Assembly (NCBI GenBank): GCA_014729775.1
Contig: WJJJ01000009.1
Span: 1 to 32,258, forward strand
DNA length: 32,258 bases
Source of the DNA: Candidatus Omnitrophota bacterium
GTDB taxonomy: Bacteria > Omnitrophota > Gorgyraeia > Duberdicusellales > 4484-171
Direction of reading: 5' to 3'
The notes beneath the pieces were generated by a model, which was not told the DNA's origin, searched no databases, and saw only the letters and a program-made list of their open reading frames with translations. The position numbers and the translations under genes are program-made. Positions 1,926 to 19,267 of this stretch are shown piece by piece. How positions within the stretch are numbered: the first letter of the stretch is position 1; every line of letters starts with the position of its first letter.

Positions 1926-3257
1926 GTGGCGAAGCAGTTCACGAAAAAAGACGTAATTCAATTAGTGAAAGCGAATGATGTGAAGTTTATCCGGTTTTGG
2001 TTTGCTGATATTACCGGACAGATGAAGGGATTTGCCATTACCAGTGATGAGCTGGAAAACGCGTTGGAGGACGGAATGGGGTTTGACGGTTCGTCGATCA
2101 AGGGGTTCGCCCGGATTGACGAATCAGACATGATCGCGATGCCTGATCCGACGACGTTCACGCTTCTCCCGTACCGGCCGAAGGAAAAAGCGGTGGCCGG
2201 GATGCTCTGTGATATCCTGAAACCCGACCGGACTCCCTACGAAGGCGATCCCCGGTTCGTCCTGCGCAAGATGCTCAAAAAAGCCAAAGATATGGGGTAT
2301 GATTTTTATATCGGCCCGGAACTTGAGTTTTTTGTGTTTGAGGATGAAAAATCGACCAAAACGATCGATGAGGGCGGATATTTCGATATCACTACCCTGG
2401 ATTCCGGGAACGAAGTGCGCAGGGAGATTATTCTTACGCTGGAACATATGGGAATTCAGGTGGAATATTCCCACCATGAGGTGGCTCCTTCCCAGCATGA
2501 AATTGACCTCCGCTATGCCGAAGCGAGGTCAATGGCCGATATTGTGATGATGTACCGTATGGTGGTGAAAGAGATCGCGCAAAAACACGGGCTGTACGCG
2601 ACCTTTATGCCGAAGCCGATGTTCGGCAAGAACGGGTCCGGGATGCATACTCATCAGTCGTTGTTTCGGGGAGAGAAGAACGCGTTTTTCGATCCCGCGG
2701 ATCCTTATCATCTGTCGGCCGAAGCGAAATCGTATATCGCGGGGGTACTCAAACACGCACCGGAAATTACCCTCCTGTGCAATCAGTGGGTCAATTCCTA
2801 TAAGCGGCTCGTTCCCGGATACGAGGCCCCGGTGTATATCTGTTGGGCCCGGCGTAACCGCAGTTCTCTGGTACGGGTGCCGATGTACAAGCCGGGTAAG
2901 GAGAAAGCGACCCGGATCGAATTCCGTTCGCCTGATCCGGCCTGTAATCCGTATCTGGCCTTTGCCTGTATGCTCGGTGCCGGGCTCAAAGGCATCGAGG
3001 AGGGATATCAGCTTCCGGATCCTCTGGAACGGGACGTGTATCATCTTACCTATCAGGAACGCAAAGAGCTGAATCTGCAATGTCTGCCTGGAAGTCTGAT
3101 TGAGGCGATTGAGGTCGCGGAAGAAAGCGAACTCCTGAAAGAGGTGCTGGGCGAACATATTTTCCGTAACGTGATCATGTCCAAGCACATTGAGTGGGAT
3201 GAGTACCGTAAACAGGTGCATGAGTACGAGATTAACACCTATCTTCCGCTGCTGTAA
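1926..3257 (+). CDS. glnA: Type I glutamine synthetase
   Basis: 443 aa; GS motifs MGFDGSSIKGF, NGSGMHTHQSL, EFRSPDPACNPYLAF; GTG start with AGGAGG RBS. Confidence 0.96.
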   Translation: MAKQFTKKDVIQLVKANDVKFIRFWFADITGQMKGFAITSDELENALEDGMGFDGSSIKGFARIDESDMIAMPDPTTFTLLPYRPKEKAVAGMLCDILKPDRTPYEGDPRFVLRKMLKKAKDMGYDFYIGPELEFFVFEDEKSTKTIDEGGYFDITTLDSGNEVRREIILTLEHMGIQVEYSHHEVAPSQHEIDLRYAEARSMADIVMMYRMVVKEIAQKHGLYATFMPKPMFGKNGSGMHTHQSLFRGEKNAFFDPADPYHLSAEAKSYIAGVLKHAPEITLLCNQWVNSYKRLVPGYEAPVYICWARRNRSSLVRVPMYKPGKEKATRIEFRSPDPACNPYLAFACMLGAGLKGIEEGYQLPDPLERDVYHLTYQERKELNLQCLPGSLIEAIEVAEESELLKEVLGEHIFRNVIMSKHIEWDEYRKQVHEYEINTYLPLL

Positions 3258-3265
3258 AAATTGAC

Positions 3266-3295
3266 TTGACAGTTCCGTGCCGCTTATGGTATTCT
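3266..3295 (+). promoter_or_regulatory. Sigma-70-like promoter upstream of the sigma-factor gene
   Basis: TTGACA-N18-TATTCT. Confidence 0.6.
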
Positions 3296-3323
3296 AAATT
3301 ACAACGAAGTGCGCAGGCAATGA

Positions 3324-3356
3324 AGCCCCAAAGACCGATCTTTGGGGCTTTTTTTT
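3324..3356 (+). terminator. Intrinsic terminator T1 (between promoter and sigma-factor CDS)
   Basis: AAGCCCCAAAGA-CCGA-TCTTTGGGGCTT followed by a T8 tract. Confidence 0.85.
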
Positions 3357-3365
3357 GGCAGTGAG

Positions 3366-3406
3366 GCCTCTCGACGGGGAAATTCCGTCCGAGAGGCTTT
3401 TTTTTT
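3366..3406 (+). terminator. Intrinsic terminator T2, tandem to T1
   Basis: GCCTCTCG-ACGG-GGAAATT-CCGT-C-CGAGAGGC followed by T9. Confidence 0.85.
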
Positions 3407-3431: not shown

Positions 3432-3959
3432 ATGGAGTTCGAAACATTACTCAACCGCATAGGGCCGAAATTAAAAGGGATTACCCGGTGTCTGGACCGG
3501 AAATACGCGCTCTTTTCCAATGAAGATCTCTATCAGGAAGCGGTGGGTCATTTGTGGGAAGAGTACTGCGCTCATCGTTTCACCCGGCGGAACGAGAGCT
3601 ATATTCTCCACGGGTGTTATTACTTTCTGAAAAATTTCATCCGGAAGTCCTCCCGGACGCTGGACCGGCGCACGCTGAGCCTGCATCGGCCTTCGGCAGA
3701 CGAATACCAGGAATACGCCGAACGTATCCCGGAGCGTGGCCCGGATTCTTTTTCCCGACTTAATGCCCGGATCTGTGAACGGGATTTAGACCGGCTGCTG
3801 GATCCGCGGGAATTGAAAATCATCCGGTTGAGGCTTGCAGGGTACACCGCCCGCGAGATCGGAGCACAGCTGGGGATATCACACGTGATGGTTGCCAAGC
3901 TCAGGGCGCGGATCAGAGAAAAATGCCGAGCCATAAAAAAAGAACTCGTTCGTATGTAA
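3432..3959 (+). CDS. Small sigma-70 family (ECF-like) RNA polymerase sigma factor
   Basis: Region 2-like DLYQEAVGHLWEEY...FLKNFIRKSSR and region 4 HTH DPRELKIIRLRLAGYTAREIGAQLGISHVMVAKLRARIREK; ATG at 3432 with AAGGAG RBS. The track start at 3342 lies in the terminators and is unlikely. Confidence 0.75.
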   Translation: MEFETLLNRIGPKLKGITRCLDRKYALFSNEDLYQEAVGHLWEEYCAHRFTRRNESYILHGCYYFLKNFIRKSSRTLDRRTLSLHRPSADEYQEYAERIPERGPDSFSRLNARICERDLDRLLDPRELKIIRLRLAGYTAREIGAQLGISHVMVAKLRARIREKCRAIKKELVRM

Positions 3960-3960
3960 A

Positions 3961-3994
3961 CAGGGTTACCAAAGACGCTGCCCGTTTACTTGTA
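3961..3994 (+). promoter_or_regulatory. Conserved bipartite element (copy 1), putative promoter of PII-1/amt
   Basis: CAGGGTTACC-N14-TTTACTTGTA, identical halves to 7272-7305 with divergent spacer. Confidence 0.55.
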
Positions 3995-4022
3995 CAGTTG
4001 AACACAGTGAAGTGAAGAACGA

Positions 4023-4050
4023 AGACGTTCCATCCGGAACGTCTTTTTGC
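4023..4050 (+). terminator. Leader terminator A1 upstream of PII-1
   Basis: AGACGTTCC-ATCC-GGAACGTCT with T-tract TTTTT. Confidence 0.75.
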
Positions 4051-4079
4051 GTTTTGAGGGTGCATGGAGCCCCCGGGGA

Positions 4080-4095
4080 GAAACACAGGCGTTTC
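4080..4095 (+). promoter_or_regulatory. Candidate ANTAR-target hairpin P2 (antiterminator) in PII-1 leader
   Basis: GAAAC[ACAGGC]GTTTC: 5-bp stem, hexaloop with A1 and G4; GCGTTTC shared with the 5' arm of the terminator at 4089. Confidence 0.6.
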
Positions 4096-4137
4096 ACTGC
4101 CGCAGGATGCGGCAGAGGAACGCTTTTTTTTATTTTT
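4089..4137 (+). terminator. Leader terminator A2 upstream of PII-1
   Basis: GCGTTTC-A-CTGCCGC-AGGAT-GCGGCAG-A-GGAACGC then TTTTTTTTATTTTT. Confidence 0.85.
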
Positions 4138-4171
4138 CAGGTCCTGACCCGGACCGAGAAAGGAGGTCAGA

Positions 4172-4492
4172 ATGAAGAAAATCGAATGTATATTACGAGC
4201 CGAAAGGCTGCGCGAGGTGAGCGCGGCACTGCGTCTGGCCGGGATCGGCGGGATGAGCGTGACTGAGATCAAAGGGTTTGGGCGCAACACGACTCGTCCG
4301 GAAGCGTATCTGTTCTTACCCAAAAGCAAGATAGAGATATACGTAACCGAAGACCAGGTCGAGGAAGTGGTGGGAGTACTGCTGAGGTACTGCCGGGACG
4401 AGCATCTCGGCAGCGGGAAGATCGCGGTGCTTCCCCTGGAAGAGTGTATCCGGGTGCGGACCGGAGAACGCGGCCCGGCGGCGATTGTGTGA
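4172..4492 (+). CDS. PII family nitrogen regulator with shortened T-loop
   Basis: 106 aa; MKKIECILRAERLREV...GGMSVTEIKGFGR...GSGKIAVLPLEECIRVRTGERG; AGGAGG RBS. Confidence 0.9.
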   Translation: MKKIECILRAERLREVSAALRLAGIGGMSVTEIKGFGRNTTRPEAYLFLPKSKIEIYVTEDQVEEVVGVLLRYCRDEHLGSGKIAVLPLEECIRVRTGERGPAAIV

Positions 4493-4518
4493 GGCGATGG
4501 AGAAGAAAGGAGGAGAAG

Positions 4519-5310
4519 ATGAACAGGTTTTTTCGGGTCATGAGTAAAATTGCGGGGATCTGTGTGTGCGGCGGGCTGATGTTTTCCTGGGGAGCGGCGT
4601 TTGCCGAAGGAGGGCTTCTGGAAAAAATGGATCTTGATATCGCCATCGAAGGAAGTCTTGATTTCTATTCCGATTACGTGTGGCGCGGATTCGTGCTGGA
4701 CCGGGATCCGGTGATCCAGCCCGGCTTTAATATCAGCGGATACGGCTTGACCTTTTCCTTTTGGAGTTCTTGGGACGCGGCCAATGAACATGGTTCCCAG
4801 TCTGATGAGATTGATTACGTGATCGATTATACCAAAGAGCTCGATGATTTGCTGAGCCTTTCGGTCGGCCACACCTATTACGATTTTCCGGCCGCGGATG
4901 CCTACAGCCGGGAATTTTACGTCGGAGTGGGCGTAAGCCGGATACCCGGAACGGACATCCCGGTGGAAACCAGTCTGACCTACTACCGCGATTACGGTGA
5001 CCAGAACGCCGGCGGAGGATTAGGGAACTATTTTTCGCTGGACGTGGCTTACAGTCAGACCATATCCGAGGATCCGGGAGTCACGCTTGACTACGGGCTT
5101 CATTTCGGGTACAACCGCAAGCTTTTTCTGACCGGGACGAGCGGCTATGACCTGGGTCTGAGCATGGGGCTTTCTCTGCCGCTTACCGACCGGCTGACCA
5201 TGACGCCTTCAGTGAACTACTCGATTCCGTTCGGGGATCTGAAAGACAGCGCCGACGGCGATCAGGAGGCGCGTTTCTATACAGGGGTGGGATTTTGGTA
5301 CGCATTATAA
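4519..5310 (+). CDS. TorF-family (Gcw_chp) putative outer-membrane protein
   Basis: Signal peptide ending AAFA; GSLDFYSDYVWRGFVLDRDPVIQPGFNISGYGLTFSFWSSWD motif; sits between PII and amt. Confidence 0.75.
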   Translation: MNRFFRVMSKIAGICVCGGLMFSWGAAFAEGGLLEKMDLDIAIEGSLDFYSDYVWRGFVLDRDPVIQPGFNISGYGLTFSFWSSWDAANEHGSQSDEIDYVIDYTKELDDLLSLSVGHTYYDFPAADAYSREFYVGVGVSRIPGTDIPVETSLTYYRDYGDQNAGGGLGNYFSLDVAYSQTISEDPGVTLDYGLHFGYNRKLFLTGTSGYDLGLSMGLSLPLTDRLTMTPSVNYSIPFGDLKDSADGDQEARFYTGVGFWYAL

Positions 5311-5331
5311 CAATGTGTTGAGGAGGTGAGA

Positions 5332-6669
5332 ATGATGACATTGAAAGGAAAGATGAAAAGTGTGTGGCTGTCGCTATCAATGGTGATGGGGCCGCTGCCT
5401 TTATTTGCGCAGCCCACAGGATTGAGCGAGATCGTTACCGGACTGGATACGGTATGGGTGCTGATCGCGGCCTTTTTGGTGTTCTTCATGCAAGCCGGTT
5501 TTGGAATGGTCGAGGCCGGGTTTATCCGGGCAAAGAATACCTGTAACATCCTTACGAAAAACTTTCTTGATTACTGCATGGCTTCACTGGGATTTTTTCT
5601 GTTCGGATACGCGATCATGTTTGGAGAAGGAAACGCTTTGATCGGATTGAAAGGCTGGTTTCTATCGGGAGCGCAGTCCGGGGCGGGAGTGCCGCTGTTT
5701 GCGTTCTGGTTGTTCCAGGCGGCGTTTGTGGGAGCCGCGGCTACGATCGTTGCCGGCGGAGTGGCTGAACGAATGAAGTTCAGTGCGTATCTGATCTATT
5801 CTTTCCTTATTTCCGCTTTTATTTATCCGGTGGTCGGCCATTGGATCTGGGGCGGCGGCTGGCTCGCGCAGCTGGGATTCGCGGATTTTGCCGGTTCTAC
5901 CGTGGTGCACGCCGTCGGCGGATTCGCGGCTTTGATTGGGACGATACTGCTCAAACCGCGGATCGGCAAATACAATGCCGACGGCTCGGCGAACGTGATC
6001 GCCGGACATTCCATCCCCCTGGCTTCGCTGGGGGTTTTTATTCTGTGGTTCGGCTGGTTCGGATTTAATCCCGGTTCATCTTTAGGTGTCGGAAACGGGG
6101 AATTGATTGCCCGCGTGGCGATCAATACTAATCTTGCCGCCGCACTCGGCGGGATTGCCGCGCTGATCACCGTCTGGAAGATGTTCGGCAAGCCCGATCT
6201 TTCCATGGCCATGAACGGCGCGTTAGCGGGACTGGTCGCGATCACTGCTCCCTGCGCGTTTGTAGAGCCCTGGGCGGCGATGCTCATCGGCGCCGTAGGC
6301 GGTATCCTGGTCGTGCTGGGAGTGGTCGTGCTGGATAAACTGAAAATCGACGATCCCGTCGGCGCGGTACCGGTGCACGGCCTGAACGGCGTGTGGGGTA
6401 CGCTCGCCATCGGTCTGTTTGGTCAGAAAGCACTGGGGCTTTCCTCGGACGGTCTCCTGTACGGAGGAGGACTCTCTCAGTTCGCTATTCAGCTGCTGGG
6501 TGTCTCTTCGGTGGTGGTATTCGTGCTGGTGACTATGGGGATTATCTTTAAAATCCTCGATCTAACCATCGGACTGCGGGTCAGCCGGGAGGAAGAACTG
6601 AAAGGACTTGATATCGGAGAGCACGGGATGGAATCGTACTCGGGATTTCAGGTCTTCACCACACAGTAG
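5332..6669 (+). CDS. amt: Ammonium transporter
   Basis: Multi-TM; Amt motifs FFMQAGFGMVEAGFIRAKN, DFAGSTVVHAVGG, WFGFNPGSSL, DDPVGAVPVHGLNGVWGTLA; GGAGGTG RBS. Confidence 0.96.
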   Translation: MMTLKGKMKSVWLSLSMVMGPLPLFAQPTGLSEIVTGLDTVWVLIAAFLVFFMQAGFGMVEAGFIRAKNTCNILTKNFLDYCMASLGFFLFGYAIMFGEGNALIGLKGWFLSGAQSGAGVPLFAFWLFQAAFVGAAATIVAGGVAERMKFSAYLIYSFLISAFIYPVVGHWIWGGGWLAQLGFADFAGSTVVHAVGGFAALIGTILLKPRIGKYNADGSANVIAGHSIPLASLGVFILWFGWFGFNPGSSLGVGNGELIARVAINTNLAAALGGIAALITVWKMFGKPDLSMAMNGALAGLVAITAPCAFVEPWAAMLIGAVGGILVVLGVVVLDKLKIDDPVGAVPVHGLNGVWGTLAIGLFGQKALGLSSDGLLYGGGLSQFAIQLLGVSSVVVFVLVTMGIIFKILDLTIGLRVSREEELKGLDIGEHGMESYSGFQVFTTQ

Positions 6670-6675
6670 GAAAAG

Positions 6676-6705
6676 ATGGGTGATCCCGGATCCGGGATCA
6701 CCCAT
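6676..6705 (+). repeat. Perfect 30-nt palindrome between amt and glnK
   Basis: ATGGGTGATCCCGGATCCGGGATCACCCAT. Confidence 0.9.
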
Positions 6706-6726
6706 CAGCAAGAATGAGGAGGAAAG

Positions 6727-7068
6727 ATGAAACTGATAGTAGCAATGATCCAGCCGCATAAACTGCCGGACGTGAAAAAAGCGCTGTTTGAGGCCGAGGT
6801 GCATAAGATGACGGTGACCAACGCGGTGGGGTGTGGTCAGCAGAAGGGATACACCGAAACCTACCGGGGCGTGATTACCGAGGTGAATCTGTTGAAGAAG
6901 GTTCGGCTGGAGATCGGCGTGAACGAAGAGTTCGTGGAGCCGACGGTAAAGGCGATCATCAAGGGCGCCCGGACCGGGGGGATCGGAGACGGGAAGATAT
7001 TTGTGCTTGATCTGCCCGAGTGTATCCGGATCCGTACCGGGGAGAGAGGGAATGAGGCGATTGGATAG
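6727..7068 (+). CDS. glnK: PII family nitrogen regulator (GlnK/GlnB-like, full T-loop)
   Basis: 113 aa; [30 protein letters not shown] and [26 protein letters not shown]; directly after amt. Confidence 0.93.
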
Positions 7069-7271: not shown

Positions 7272-7305
7272 CAGGGTTACCGGAATGAAGGCGAATTTAC
7301 TTGTA
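7272..7305 (+). promoter_or_regulatory. Conserved bipartite element (copy 2), putative promoter of glnA2
   Basis: CAGGGTTACC-N14-TTTACTTGTA. Confidence 0.55.
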
Positions 7306-7325
7306 GATATAAGGCGGGGATTTTA

Positions 7326-7373
7326 CGCACAGAGACGTGCGCGATTACGCAGGAGGAGACAAGGGCGTTCTTC
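7326..7373 (+). promoter_or_regulatory. Candidate dual-hexaloop ANTAR target (P1 7326-7341, P2 7353-7373)
   Basis: P1 CGCAC[AGAGAC]GTGCG; P2 GAGG(A)GAC[AAGGGC]GTTCTTC; both hexaloops have A1 and G4; GGGCGTTCTTC (7363-7373) is also the 5' arm of the terminator. Confidence 0.65.
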
Positions 7374-7397
7374 ATTTGAGGAACGCTCTTTTTCTTT
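7363..7397 (+). terminator. Leader terminator upstream of glnA2
   Basis: GGGCGTTCTTC-ATTT-GAGGAACGCTC then TTTTTCTTT. Confidence 0.85.
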
Positions 7398-7444: not shown

Positions 7445-8776
7445 ATGGCAGAAAAAACAAAGGCAGACGTACTTAAATTAGTCAAACAGCATGATGTGAA
7501 GTTTATCCGGCTTTGGTTTACCGATCTTCTGGGGCAGGTGAAGAGTTTCGCGATTACCGCCGGAGAGCTGGAAGGTGCGATGGAGAACGGGATGGGATTT
7601 GACGGTTCGTCGATCACCGGTTATCAGGATATCGAGGAATCTGACATGATCGCGATGCCTGATCCCAGTACGTTCGTTCTGCTCCCCTGGAGGCCGAAAG
7701 AAAAAGCGGTGGCCCGGATGATCTGTGACGTGTTGACCCCGGATCGAAAACCGTATGAAGGAGATCCCCGCTACGTGCTGAAACGGGCGCTGGAACGGGC
7801 AAAGAAAATGGGGTTTGATCACTATTATGTCGGTCCTGAACTGGAATTCTTTTATTTCAAGTCCGACACCGGTACCGATATACTGGATAAGGGGGGATAT
7901 TTCGATCTTACTACGCTGGATATGGCCAGTGATTTGCGCCGCGAGACCGTACTCACGCTGGAGAAAATGGGGATCGACGTCGAATATTCGCATCATGAAG
8001 TCGCCCCGTCTCAGCACGAAGTCGACATGCGGTACAAGGACGCCCTTCAGATGGCCGACGCGGTGATTACCTATCGAATCGTGGTGAAGGAGATCGCGAC
8101 CAAGTTCGGAGTATACGCGACCTTTATGCCCAAACCGATCTTCGGCGAGAACGGATCCGGGATGCATACGCACCAGTCGCTTTTTTCGGGAGAGAAAAAC
8201 GCGTTCTTTGACGCCAAGAGCGATGATCATCTTTCCGAAGTCGGACACAGCTACATTGCCGGTTTGCTCAAGCACGCCAAGGAGATCTGTTCCATTTTTG
8301 CGCAGACGACGAATTCGTACAAACGGCTGGTTCCGGGGTACGAGGCGCCGGTGTATATCGCCTGGAGCCGGCGGAACAGGAGCGCGTTGGTGCGGGTGCC
8401 GCTGTATCATCCCGGCCAGGAAAAAGCGACACGGTGTGAGTTCCGGGCCTGCGATCCGGCCTGTAACCCGTATTTGACCTTCGCGGCCATGCTGCACGCC
8501 GGTCTGGACGGGATCGAGAAAAAATACCAAGTGCCGGCGGCAATGGAAAAGAATCTCTACCATTTGAGTGCCGCCGAACGCAGAGCGCAAGGGGTAGAGA
8601 CCCTTCCCGACAGTCTGGGAGGAGCTGTTGCCGAGACCAGCCAAAGCGAGTTGGTCAAACGGGTGCTCGGCGAACATATCTTTCCCCGGTTCGTCGAACT
8701 GAAACAGAAAGAATGGGACGAATACCGTATTCAGGTACCCCAGTACGAATTGGACAATTACCTGGCGGTGCTGTGA
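7445..8776 (+). CDS. glnA: Type I glutamine synthetase, second paralog
   Basis: 443 aa; same GS motifs as 1926-3257 (MGFDGSSITGY, NGSGMHTHQSL, EFRACDPACNPYLTF). Confidence 0.96.
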   Translation: MAEKTKADVLKLVKQHDVKFIRLWFTDLLGQVKSFAITAGELEGAMENGMGFDGSSITGYQDIEESDMIAMPDPSTFVLLPWRPKEKAVARMICDVLTPDRKPYEGDPRYVLKRALERAKKMGFDHYYVGPELEFFYFKSDTGTDILDKGGYFDLTTLDMASDLRRETVLTLEKMGIDVEYSHHEVAPSQHEVDMRYKDALQMADAVITYRIVVKEIATKFGVYATFMPKPIFGENGSGMHTHQSLFSGEKNAFFDAKSDDHLSEVGHSYIAGLLKHAKEICSIFAQTTNSYKRLVPGYEAPVYIAWSRRNRSALVRVPLYHPGQEKATRCEFRACDPACNPYLTFAAMLHAGLDGIEKKYQVPAAMEKNLYHLSAAERRAQGVETLPDSLGGAVAETSQSELVKRVLGEHIFPRFVELKQKEWDEYRIQVPQYELDNYLAVL

Positions 8777-9564: not shown

Positions 9565-9945
9565 ATGATTACCATATTAGTACTTGAAGATGAGAGCAAA
9601 GTCTATAAAATACTTTCCGAAGTGCTGGAGGATCAAGGGTACCAGCTTTCCAACGATCCCCAGGCGGCGGATCTGATCAAGGTGGTCAAACGGGGGCAAC
9701 AGCCCGGTTCGGTTCCTTTTTGGCCCAAAAACTTCCTTGATTTTCAGGACGTACTGCTCCATCAAAGTAACGGCAATCTCTATAAGGCATTGCTGGAAAA
9801 ACTGGAAAAACCGCTCATCGAAGCGGCATTGAACCGGACGGAAGGCAACCAGCTCAAAGCCGCAAAACTGCTGGGCTTGAACCGGAATACGCTGTACTCG
9901 AAAATGAAACGGCTCCATATTCACGCGGAAAAATGGAAAAAATAA
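9565..9945 (+). CDS. Short regulator: degenerate REC-like N-terminus fused to Fis/NtrC-type HTH
   Basis: 126 aa; MITILVLEDESKVYKILSEVLEDQGYQL plus KPLIEAALNRTEGNQLKAAKLLGLNRNTLYSKMKRL; no AAA+ domain. Confidence 0.75.
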   Translation: MITILVLEDESKVYKILSEVLEDQGYQLSNDPQAADLIKVVKRGQQPGSVPFWPKNFLDFQDVLLHQSNGNLYKALLEKLEKPLIEAALNRTEGNQLKAAKLLGLNRNTLYSKMKRLHIHAEKWKK

Positions 9946-18487: not shown

Positions 18488-18565
18488 CCGCTTTCTTAAA
18501 TCTTTTCTTCTCTCCTTTGTATGTTATAATAAATTTGCTTGTTTTCTATATTACGGGGAATTAAT

Positions 18566-19267
18566 ATGCCTGATTCTGCGCCGAAGGATAAAAAATACCT
18601 GAATACGCTGAAACAGATCAGCAAGGCGATTACCTCCGAGCTGTATCTCGAGGATATTCTCAAGCTGGTGGTCAGTCTGACGGCCAACGTGATGAAAGCG
18701 AAGATCTGCGCGTTGTGGTTGTTGGACGAAGCGACCCAGGAATTGAAAATCCGGGCTACCCAGGCCATGAGCAGCGAGTATCTCAAGGAACGCTCGATCA
18801 AAGTGGGAGAGGGCGTGGTCGGTCTGGTGGCCAAGGAGCAAACACCTCTGGTAATCCTCGACGTATCGAAAGATTCGCGCTATAAAGAAAAGACGCTCGC
18901 CAAAAAAGAAGGCCTGGTATCGATGATCAGTGTGCCGATGTTCGTCAAAGACAAAGTGATCGGCGTTATCAATTGCTACACGACCGCCAAGTATAAGTTT
19001 ACCAGAAGCGATATCGATCTTTTAAGTACCGTGGCCAACCAGGCGGCAGTGGCAATCGAAAACACCGAACTGATGGTGAAGACCCGGGTCATTCAGGAAG
19101 AGCTGGCTACACGGAAAAAAGTTGAACGGGCCAAGGGGATTCTGATGCGTCAGCGCGGACTGAGCGAAGACGAAGCGTTTACGCTTATCCGCAAATCCAG
19201 TATGCACAAACGTCTTCCCATGAAAGAGATCGCCGAGGCGATTATCATTTCGTATGAAATCAAATAG
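18566..19267 (+). CDS. GAF-ANTAR transcription antitermination regulator
   Basis: GAF-like N-terminus; C-terminal ANTAR signature KKVERAKGILMRQRGLSEDEAFTLIRKSSMHKRLPMKEIAEAIIIS. Confidence 0.88.
   Translation: MPDSAPKDKKYLNTLKQISKAITSELYLEDILKLVVSLTANVMKAKICALWLLDEATQELKIRATQAMSSEYLKERSIKVGEGVVGLVAKEQTPLVILDVSKDSRYKEKTLAKKEGLVSMISVPMFVKDKVIGVINCYTTAKYKFTRSDIDLLSTVANQAAVAIENTELMVKTRVIQEELATRKKVERAKGILMRQRGLSEDEAFTLIRKSSMHKRLPMKEIAEAIIISYEIK

Follow-up and report, generated by a model that had tools for sequence, protein, structure and literature searches.

In other phyla, ANTAR leaders are already known in front of PII, amt and gln genes, and some units carry several elements (PMC3369931). 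Desulfotomaculum acetoxidans, for example, has an ANTAR regulon of six units with a total of at least 13 elements, regulons of this kind standing before PII, amt, gltB and glnA (PMC3369931). In EutV, one dimer contacts one hexaloop at a time, the recruitment hairpin (P1) first and the antitermination hairpin (P2) next, with no specific protein contact to A1 of the loop (PMC8934654). Here, we report a leader from a Candidatus Omnitrophota bacterium (NCBI GenBank assembly GCA_014729775.1, 1.65-Mb genome, 94% complete) that, judged by its sequence, is an ANTAR-type antitermination leader of the PII-1/TorF/amt/PII-2 genes.

The window, meaning the whole stretch of DNA that was analyzed, is 32,258 nucleotides long (contig WJJJ01000009.1, positions 1 to 32,258, forward strand). 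The genes that matter here are as follows:

1926-3257, glnA1, from the gene order of the window
3432-3959, + strand, ECF-type sigma-70 family sigma factor (TIGR02937 match, 16-sequence alignment)
4172-4492, + strand, PII-1, downstream of the leader
4519-5310, + strand, TorF-like porin, downstream of the leader
5326-6669, + strand, amt, downstream of the leader
6727-7068, + strand, PII-2, downstream of the leader
4172-7068, + strand, the putatively leader-controlled genes PII-1/TorF/amt/PII-2 together
7445-8776, glnA2, from the gene order of the window
18539-19267, + strand, GAF-ANTAR protein

After glnA2 come a glutamine amidotransferase, a Fis-type regulator, gltB, gltD and then the GAF-ANTAR protein. 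Between the amidotransferase and gltB, a short regulator (9565-9945) has a receiver-like start and an NtrC-like Fis-type helix-turn-helix (HTH); an AAA+ domain is absent from it. The gap between amt and PII-2 contains a perfect palindromic hairpin of 14 bp (6675-6706), which possibly affects the relative expression of the two genes. The region upstream of glnA1 (1780-1925) seems to carry neither the promoter element nor the hexaloop/terminator leader described below, so the two glutamine synthetases may be under different control.

The GAF-ANTAR protein is the only ANTAR protein found in the genome. When aligned to EutV (6wsh; a numbering offset of 2 was fixed by matching residues, and residue roles were taken from PMC8934654), it is identical at R142, K143, E146, K149, E160, R168 and M172, with K147 replaced by R and Y164 by F, i.e., its RNA-contact residues are kept or conservatively replaced. 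The GAF domain is similar to the one in NifA, scoring 74 bits against the NifA model, far short of the cut-off; the similarity suggests a nitrogen-status ligand. ANTAR genes were found in 44 of 58 related genomes, several of them directly beside a PII or sigma gene.

Between the sigma gene and PII-1, the following features were located:

3964-3994, + strand, promoter-like element GGTTACC-N14-TTTACTTGTA, 8 nt behind the sigma gene
4000, + strand, predicted transcription start, the sixth base after TTTACTTGTA (from the positional profile)
4003-4014, + strand, P1 (recruitment) hairpin CAC[AGTGAA]GTG, supported by the R2 model match and by promoter-selected sites
4017-4030, + strand, P2 of the first unit, GAAC[GAAGAC]GTTC, overlapping the 5' arm of A1
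4021-4048, + strand, terminator A1 (T1), including its T run
4080-4095, + strand, P2' of the second unit, GAAAC[ACAGGC]GTTTC, overlapping the 5' arm of A2
4089-4131, + strand, terminator A2 (T2), including its T run

The order is P1, AA, P2 with A1, about 30 nt, and P2' with A2. The core stem of A1 pairs GACGTTCC (4024-4031) with GGAACGTC (4036-4043); the run after it has only 5 T, a counterpoint to the ANTAR reading. A2 pairs GCGTTTC (4089-4095) with GGAACGC (4117-4123), contains an inner 7-bp stem and is followed by 8 T. As is characteristic of ANTAR leaders, the two hexaloop hairpins of the first unit are separated by a short linker (2 nt), and a P2-type hairpin overlaps the 5' arm of an intrinsic terminator, here in both units (4017-4030 with A1, 4080-4095 with A2). 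G stands at loop position 4 in all three loops (P1, P2 and P2'); position 1 is A in P1 (AGTGAA) and P2' (ACAGGC) and G in the unit-1 P2 (GAAGAC), whereas published ANTAR targets carry A there. Folding of the leader is far more stable than that of its dinucleotide shuffles (z of -3.9 for A1, -4.3 for A2 and -5.6 for both), and strong terminators with an overlapping [RNNGNN] hexaloop hairpin number 6 in the window, whereas 25 shuffles together gave 3.

All elements named in an earlier sequence-only reading of this DNA are present where it placed them. It had proposed an ANTAR-type leader before PII-1/amt, two tandem terminators and GAAAC[ACAGGC]GTTTC as a P2-type antiterminator, and each of these is borne out by homologous leaders, which keep the same anatomy, the tandem arrangement and such a hairpin at terminator 2; in the comparison of PII-1 operon leaders that it had called for, the order P1, P2/terminator 1, P2/terminator 2 is kept in relatives. 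Its anatomy was correct for P2' and the tandem terminators and overlooked the unit-1 P2. A1, which it had described as a separate terminator, is instead the first ANTAR unit with its own P1 and P2, and the "3-bp" hairpin CAC[AGTGAA]GTG that it had noticed upstream is real and takes the role of P1, which had gone unrecognized.

In leaders of relatives from the same family (PII-1 proteins 62-65% identical), xCAC[RNNGNN]GTGx is followed by AAC[AAAGSC]GTT on terminator 1, and terminator 2 is overlapped by AGAC[AGAGAC]GTCT-type hairpins. One relative (L004, in reverse-complement orientation) has three serial P2/terminator units about 55-170 nt before PII-1, with the P2 hairpins GGC[AAAGAA]GCC, GGC[AAAGAT]GCC and GGAC[AGAGAC]GTCC. 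In L163, L227, L236, L067 and L080, palindromic repeat-like inserts lie between tandem units or inside leaders. When hairpins overlapping leader terminators were collected with loop sequence unconstrained, six-base loops were found on 41 of 74 (other sizes, 8-26); position 1 was a purine in 38 of these 41 hexaloops and position 4 a G in 36, and G at position 1 was common in the clade (12/41 P2 hairpins). Units of the [RNNGNN] type lie on 37 of the 74 leader terminators (flank-only shuffles: mean 1.8, maximum 6). Because the sequences counted here and below are related, the counts do not stand for independent events, and the shuffle nulls take no account of phylogeny.

A covariance model (R2) was built from relatives only, without window sequences. 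A model built with two window sequences (R1) was dropped as support for the window leader, since its matches there prove nothing, and R2 was used instead. Over the 1.65-Mb genome, R2 ranked 4002-4031 first (30.0 bits, E 8e-4) and the leader of the sigma gene second (3299-3329; 23.6 bits, E 0.028), with the next match at 15.3 bits; at A2, it recognized the P2 half only (4081-4093). P1/P2 pairs were 100% kept in the R2 seed, with both-sided changes in 3 of 6 pairs, but the R1 and R2 seeds were picked by eye for the motif, which biases pair counts towards it, so this conservation is taken as supporting evidence only. Leader-model matches at E<=0.01 occur in 22 of the 44 genomes with ANTAR genes versus 1 of the 14 without.

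The core of the promoter-like element is GTTACC-N15-TTACTTGTA, with the predicted leader start about 6 nt downstream of the element, and AACAGGGTTACC-N14-TTTACTTGTA is common to the PII-1 and glnA2 leaders. The element has 2 exact copies in its own genome, both inside the window, and its core has 20 copies in 15 of 58 related genomes, in which a reversed-control pattern gave 0 matches. Scanned GTDB-wide, the pattern matched at least 110 stretches, the named ones mostly Omnitrophota with a few Elusimicrobia and others, and 132 sites among the matches listed were gathered by the promoter element alone. Among these listed matches, a homologue of amt, glnA, TorF, PII, gltB, amidotransferase or ANTAR follows within 1.8 kb at 100 sites, CAC[RNNG..]GTG follows the element within 80 nt at 86 (controls: 3 upstream, 4 on the reverse strand), and P2 hairpins lie on 74 of 109 first terminators (null mean 11.4) and on 35 of 41 second terminators (null mean 2.7). 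The positional profile of the listed matches has T at +5 (0.71) and G (0.55) or A (0.33) at +6; this T followed by a purine is likely the start site, which would be G4000 for PII-1 and A7311 for glnA2, placing P1 at the very 5' end of the predicted PII-1 RNA.

Distances from TTTACTTGTA to P1 cluster near 11, 21-23 and 31 nt over the 132 sites (among the matches listed), i.e., in steps of about 10.5 nt that recur within several gene classes, relatedness being a possible cause. In two relatives (L165 and L198), the element precedes an ANTAR gene, which suggests autoregulation.

The shared promoter probably belongs to a small dedicated sigma factor. The product of the adjacent gene (175 aa) matches TIGR02937 near full length (residues 3-166, 46.3 bits versus a cut-off of 42.9) and the Pfam region 4 models just below their cut-offs; it has sigma regions 2 and 4 without region 3, the layout of ECF factors. 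Relatives of this protein occur in 19 of 58 genomes, all 19 with ANTAR genes. Sigma gene and promoter element co-occur in 13 of these 19 versus 2 of the other 39 genomes (p 7e-7), partly because the two are neighbors; of the 19 sigma genes, 18 have a GTTACC-N15-TACTT-type element no more than about 50 nt behind them. The element ends in TTACTTGTA (GTA) for 11 of 11 sigma factors that are 36% or more identical to the window protein, and the GTA end is found for 0 of 7 in the divergent subgroup (at most 34% identity). Counter-cases are G039 and G054, which carry the motif with no sigma relative detected, and G020, which has the sigma gene and no exact promoter match. The adjacent ECF-type factor probably reads the GTTACC-N15-TTACTTGTA promoter.

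Two further leaders in the window bear on this arrangement:

3299-3329, + strand, sigma-gene leader, P1 TAC[AACGAA]GTG and P2 GGC[AATGAA]GCC (second R2 match), with a terminator at 3323-3350
3357-3399, + strand, sigma-gene leader, second unit GGC[AGTGAG]GCC, with a terminator at 3364-3399
7275-7305, + strand, glnA2 leader, second copy of the promoter
7327-7340, + strand, glnA2 leader, P1 GCAC[AGAGAC]GTGC
7358-7369, + strand, glnA2 leader, P2 GAC[AAGGGC]GTT
7362-7389, + strand, glnA2 leader, terminator

The double ANTAR leader of the sigma gene (3266-3399) lies behind a sigma70-like promoter match, TTGACA-N18-TATTCT. Nearly all sigma-gene leaders inspected have AAC[AAAGAA]GTT, 3-4 nt, and GGC[AATGAA]GCC with a terminator, often with a second unit. 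The glnA2 leader (7275-7389) has one ANTAR unit with a longer, 16-nt linker and the same promoter element as the PII-1 leader.

Taken as a whole, the locus is in our judgment very probably a protein-controlled transcription attenuator coupled to a sigma/ANTAR feed-forward circuit. RNA polymerase would start near 4000, and P1 would form at the extreme 5' end of the RNA. With no active ANTAR protein, A1 would form and transcription would stop, and polymerase passing A1 would be halted at A2. Active GAF-ANTAR dimers, probably present at nitrogen shortage, would load on P1 and be passed to P2 (blocking A1) and on to P2' (blocking A2), and with both terminators blocked the PII/TorF/amt/PII operon would be expressed; as two sequential escapes would be required, the off state should be tight. 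The promoter would probably be recognized by the neighboring ECF-type sigma factor. As a double ANTAR leader of this kind also precedes the sigma gene, ANTAR would allow sigma synthesis and sigma plus ANTAR would allow amt/gln expression. Sequence and comparison support the hairpins and terminators with their conservation and mutual exclusion, as well as the promoter element and the ANTAR gene. We infer binding by the GAF-ANTAR protein, the hand-off, a nitrogen signal (e.g., 2-oxoglutarate via the GAF domain) and use of the promoter by the sigma factor. More broadly, we lean towards a two-tier nitrogen circuit in Omnitrophota, in which GAF-ANTAR would first let a dedicated ECF-type sigma factor be made and later act a second time, on the leaders of the operons that depend on this factor, a single recruitment hairpin feeding two to three serial units.

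How A2 would be served is the point on which the anatomy allows more than one answer. The sequence-only reading had proposed 4058-4074 as a P1 dedicated to A2, and folding does predict a hairpin at this place, its loop carrying A in the first and G in the fourth position. Its loop is closed by a C-C mismatch, whereas the closing pair is C-G in every P1 and P2 of the seed (17/17 aligned relatives), and RNAfold pairs it as a pentaloop, GGG(U)GC[AUGGA]GCCCC. In 20 tandem leaders, terminator 1 and P2' are separated by a median of 20 nt, and only 2 of these leaders have a P1-like hairpin in the gap, one of which is a long-stem hairpin; L132 does have a good one between its two units. On the grounds of closing pair or loop size and of rarity in relatives, the candidate was rejected, and a dedicated P1 for A2 appears very unlikely. 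That ANTAR control reaches A1 only (through P1 and P2), the A2 hairpin being fortuitous or P1-independent, is somewhat less improbable, given that R2 sees just the P2 half at A2 and no good P1 lies between the terminators; against it, the second-unit hairpin is conserved across relatives and recurs in sigma-gene leaders and in the three-unit leader of L004. We therefore prefer one P1 shared by both P2/terminator units, since the only gap candidate closes with C-C or as a pentaloop and gap P1 hairpins are so few. One P1 serving serial P2 hairpins also fits the contact of an EutV dimer with a single hexaloop at a time.

The terminators themselves could be ordinary, A1 ending the sigma-gene mRNA and A2 acting as a back-up without ANTAR regulation; A1 does follow the sigma stop codon at a distance of about 60 nt, and the sigma transcript would also be subject to it. 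Both terminators sit, however, between a conserved promoter and PII-1, P2 hairpins occupy second terminators far more often than the 2.7 expected (35 of 41, promoter-selected, matches listed), and the P1/P2 pair is the best genome match of a model built from relatives only, which makes this reading very improbable. A metabolite riboswitch or T-box in place of a protein-controlled leader is barely credible: tandem terminators before nitrogen genes would fit glutamine-sensing RNAs in general, but the Rfam search of the leader, at gathering score and up to E 5, gave no relevant family, and only short hexaloop hairpins and terminators are conserved, with no aptamer-like core. A doubt of greater weight, though still an unlikely reading, is that GTTACC-N15-TTACTTGTA is the operator of another regulator or a variant housekeeping promoter with which the sigma gene merely travels. 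GGTTACC is nearly self-complementary, and, with one site per locus linked to the sigma gene, linkage accounts for part of the co-occurrence; on the other side, the spacing is fixed, a start-like T-purine stands at +5/+6, the -10-like end changes with the sigma subgroup and the motif is also found at unlinked sites in sigma-bearing genomes.

In the literature searched, which left most subscription journals outside its coverage, no relevant paper joined ANTAR with ECF sigma factors or with Omnitrophota, and three features look new: the tandem form with a shared P1, loops with a purine at position 1 and, in Omnitrophota, the link to an ECF-type sigma factor. The leader described here would extend ANTAR control to an uncultured phylum, and the shared promoter and leader signature makes an Omnitrophota nitrogen regulon readable. 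The layout of one P1 with several P2 hairpins bears on why both hairpins are needed if a dimer contacts a single hexaloop (PMC8934654); serial hand-off predicts that loss of the single P1 abolishes read-through at every terminator. An ANTAR-controlled sigma factor whose promoter precedes further ANTAR leaders would, if true, be a new link between control of initiation and control of elongation.

Like the ANTAR dual-hexaloop leaders of Enterococcus faecalis eut, Klebsiella nasF and Pseudomonas amiE (PMC3369931, PMC3369936), the PII-1 leader has two short hexaloops, G4 in every loop, P2 over an intrinsic terminator, an ANTAR protein in the genome and nitrogen-related genes downstream. Unlike them, it has one P1 followed by two P2/terminator units (three in L004), it belongs to a set of Omnitrophota leaders that allow G at loop position 1, and its P1 comes at the predicted 5' end, after a promoter that is conserved and not sigma70-like. 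The D. acetoxidans regulon has the same target genes and several elements per transcription unit, but belongs to a different phylum, and neither a shared P1 nor a sigma-factor link was found described for it in PMC3369931. The protein shares the TIGR02937 hallmarks of ECF sigma factors, namely the region 2 and 4 layout, small size and a conserved promoter beside its gene; it differs in that no anti-sigma gene was noticed beside it, its own gene lies behind ANTAR leaders and its linked promoter is GTTACC-N15-TTACTT(GTA). As in the recruitment and hand-off model of EutV (PMC8934654), P1 would recruit and P2 antiterminate; EutV has a receiver domain, whereas the sensor of the protein described here is a GAF domain, and the chain proposed here, unlike that of EutV, would have more than one antitermination step.
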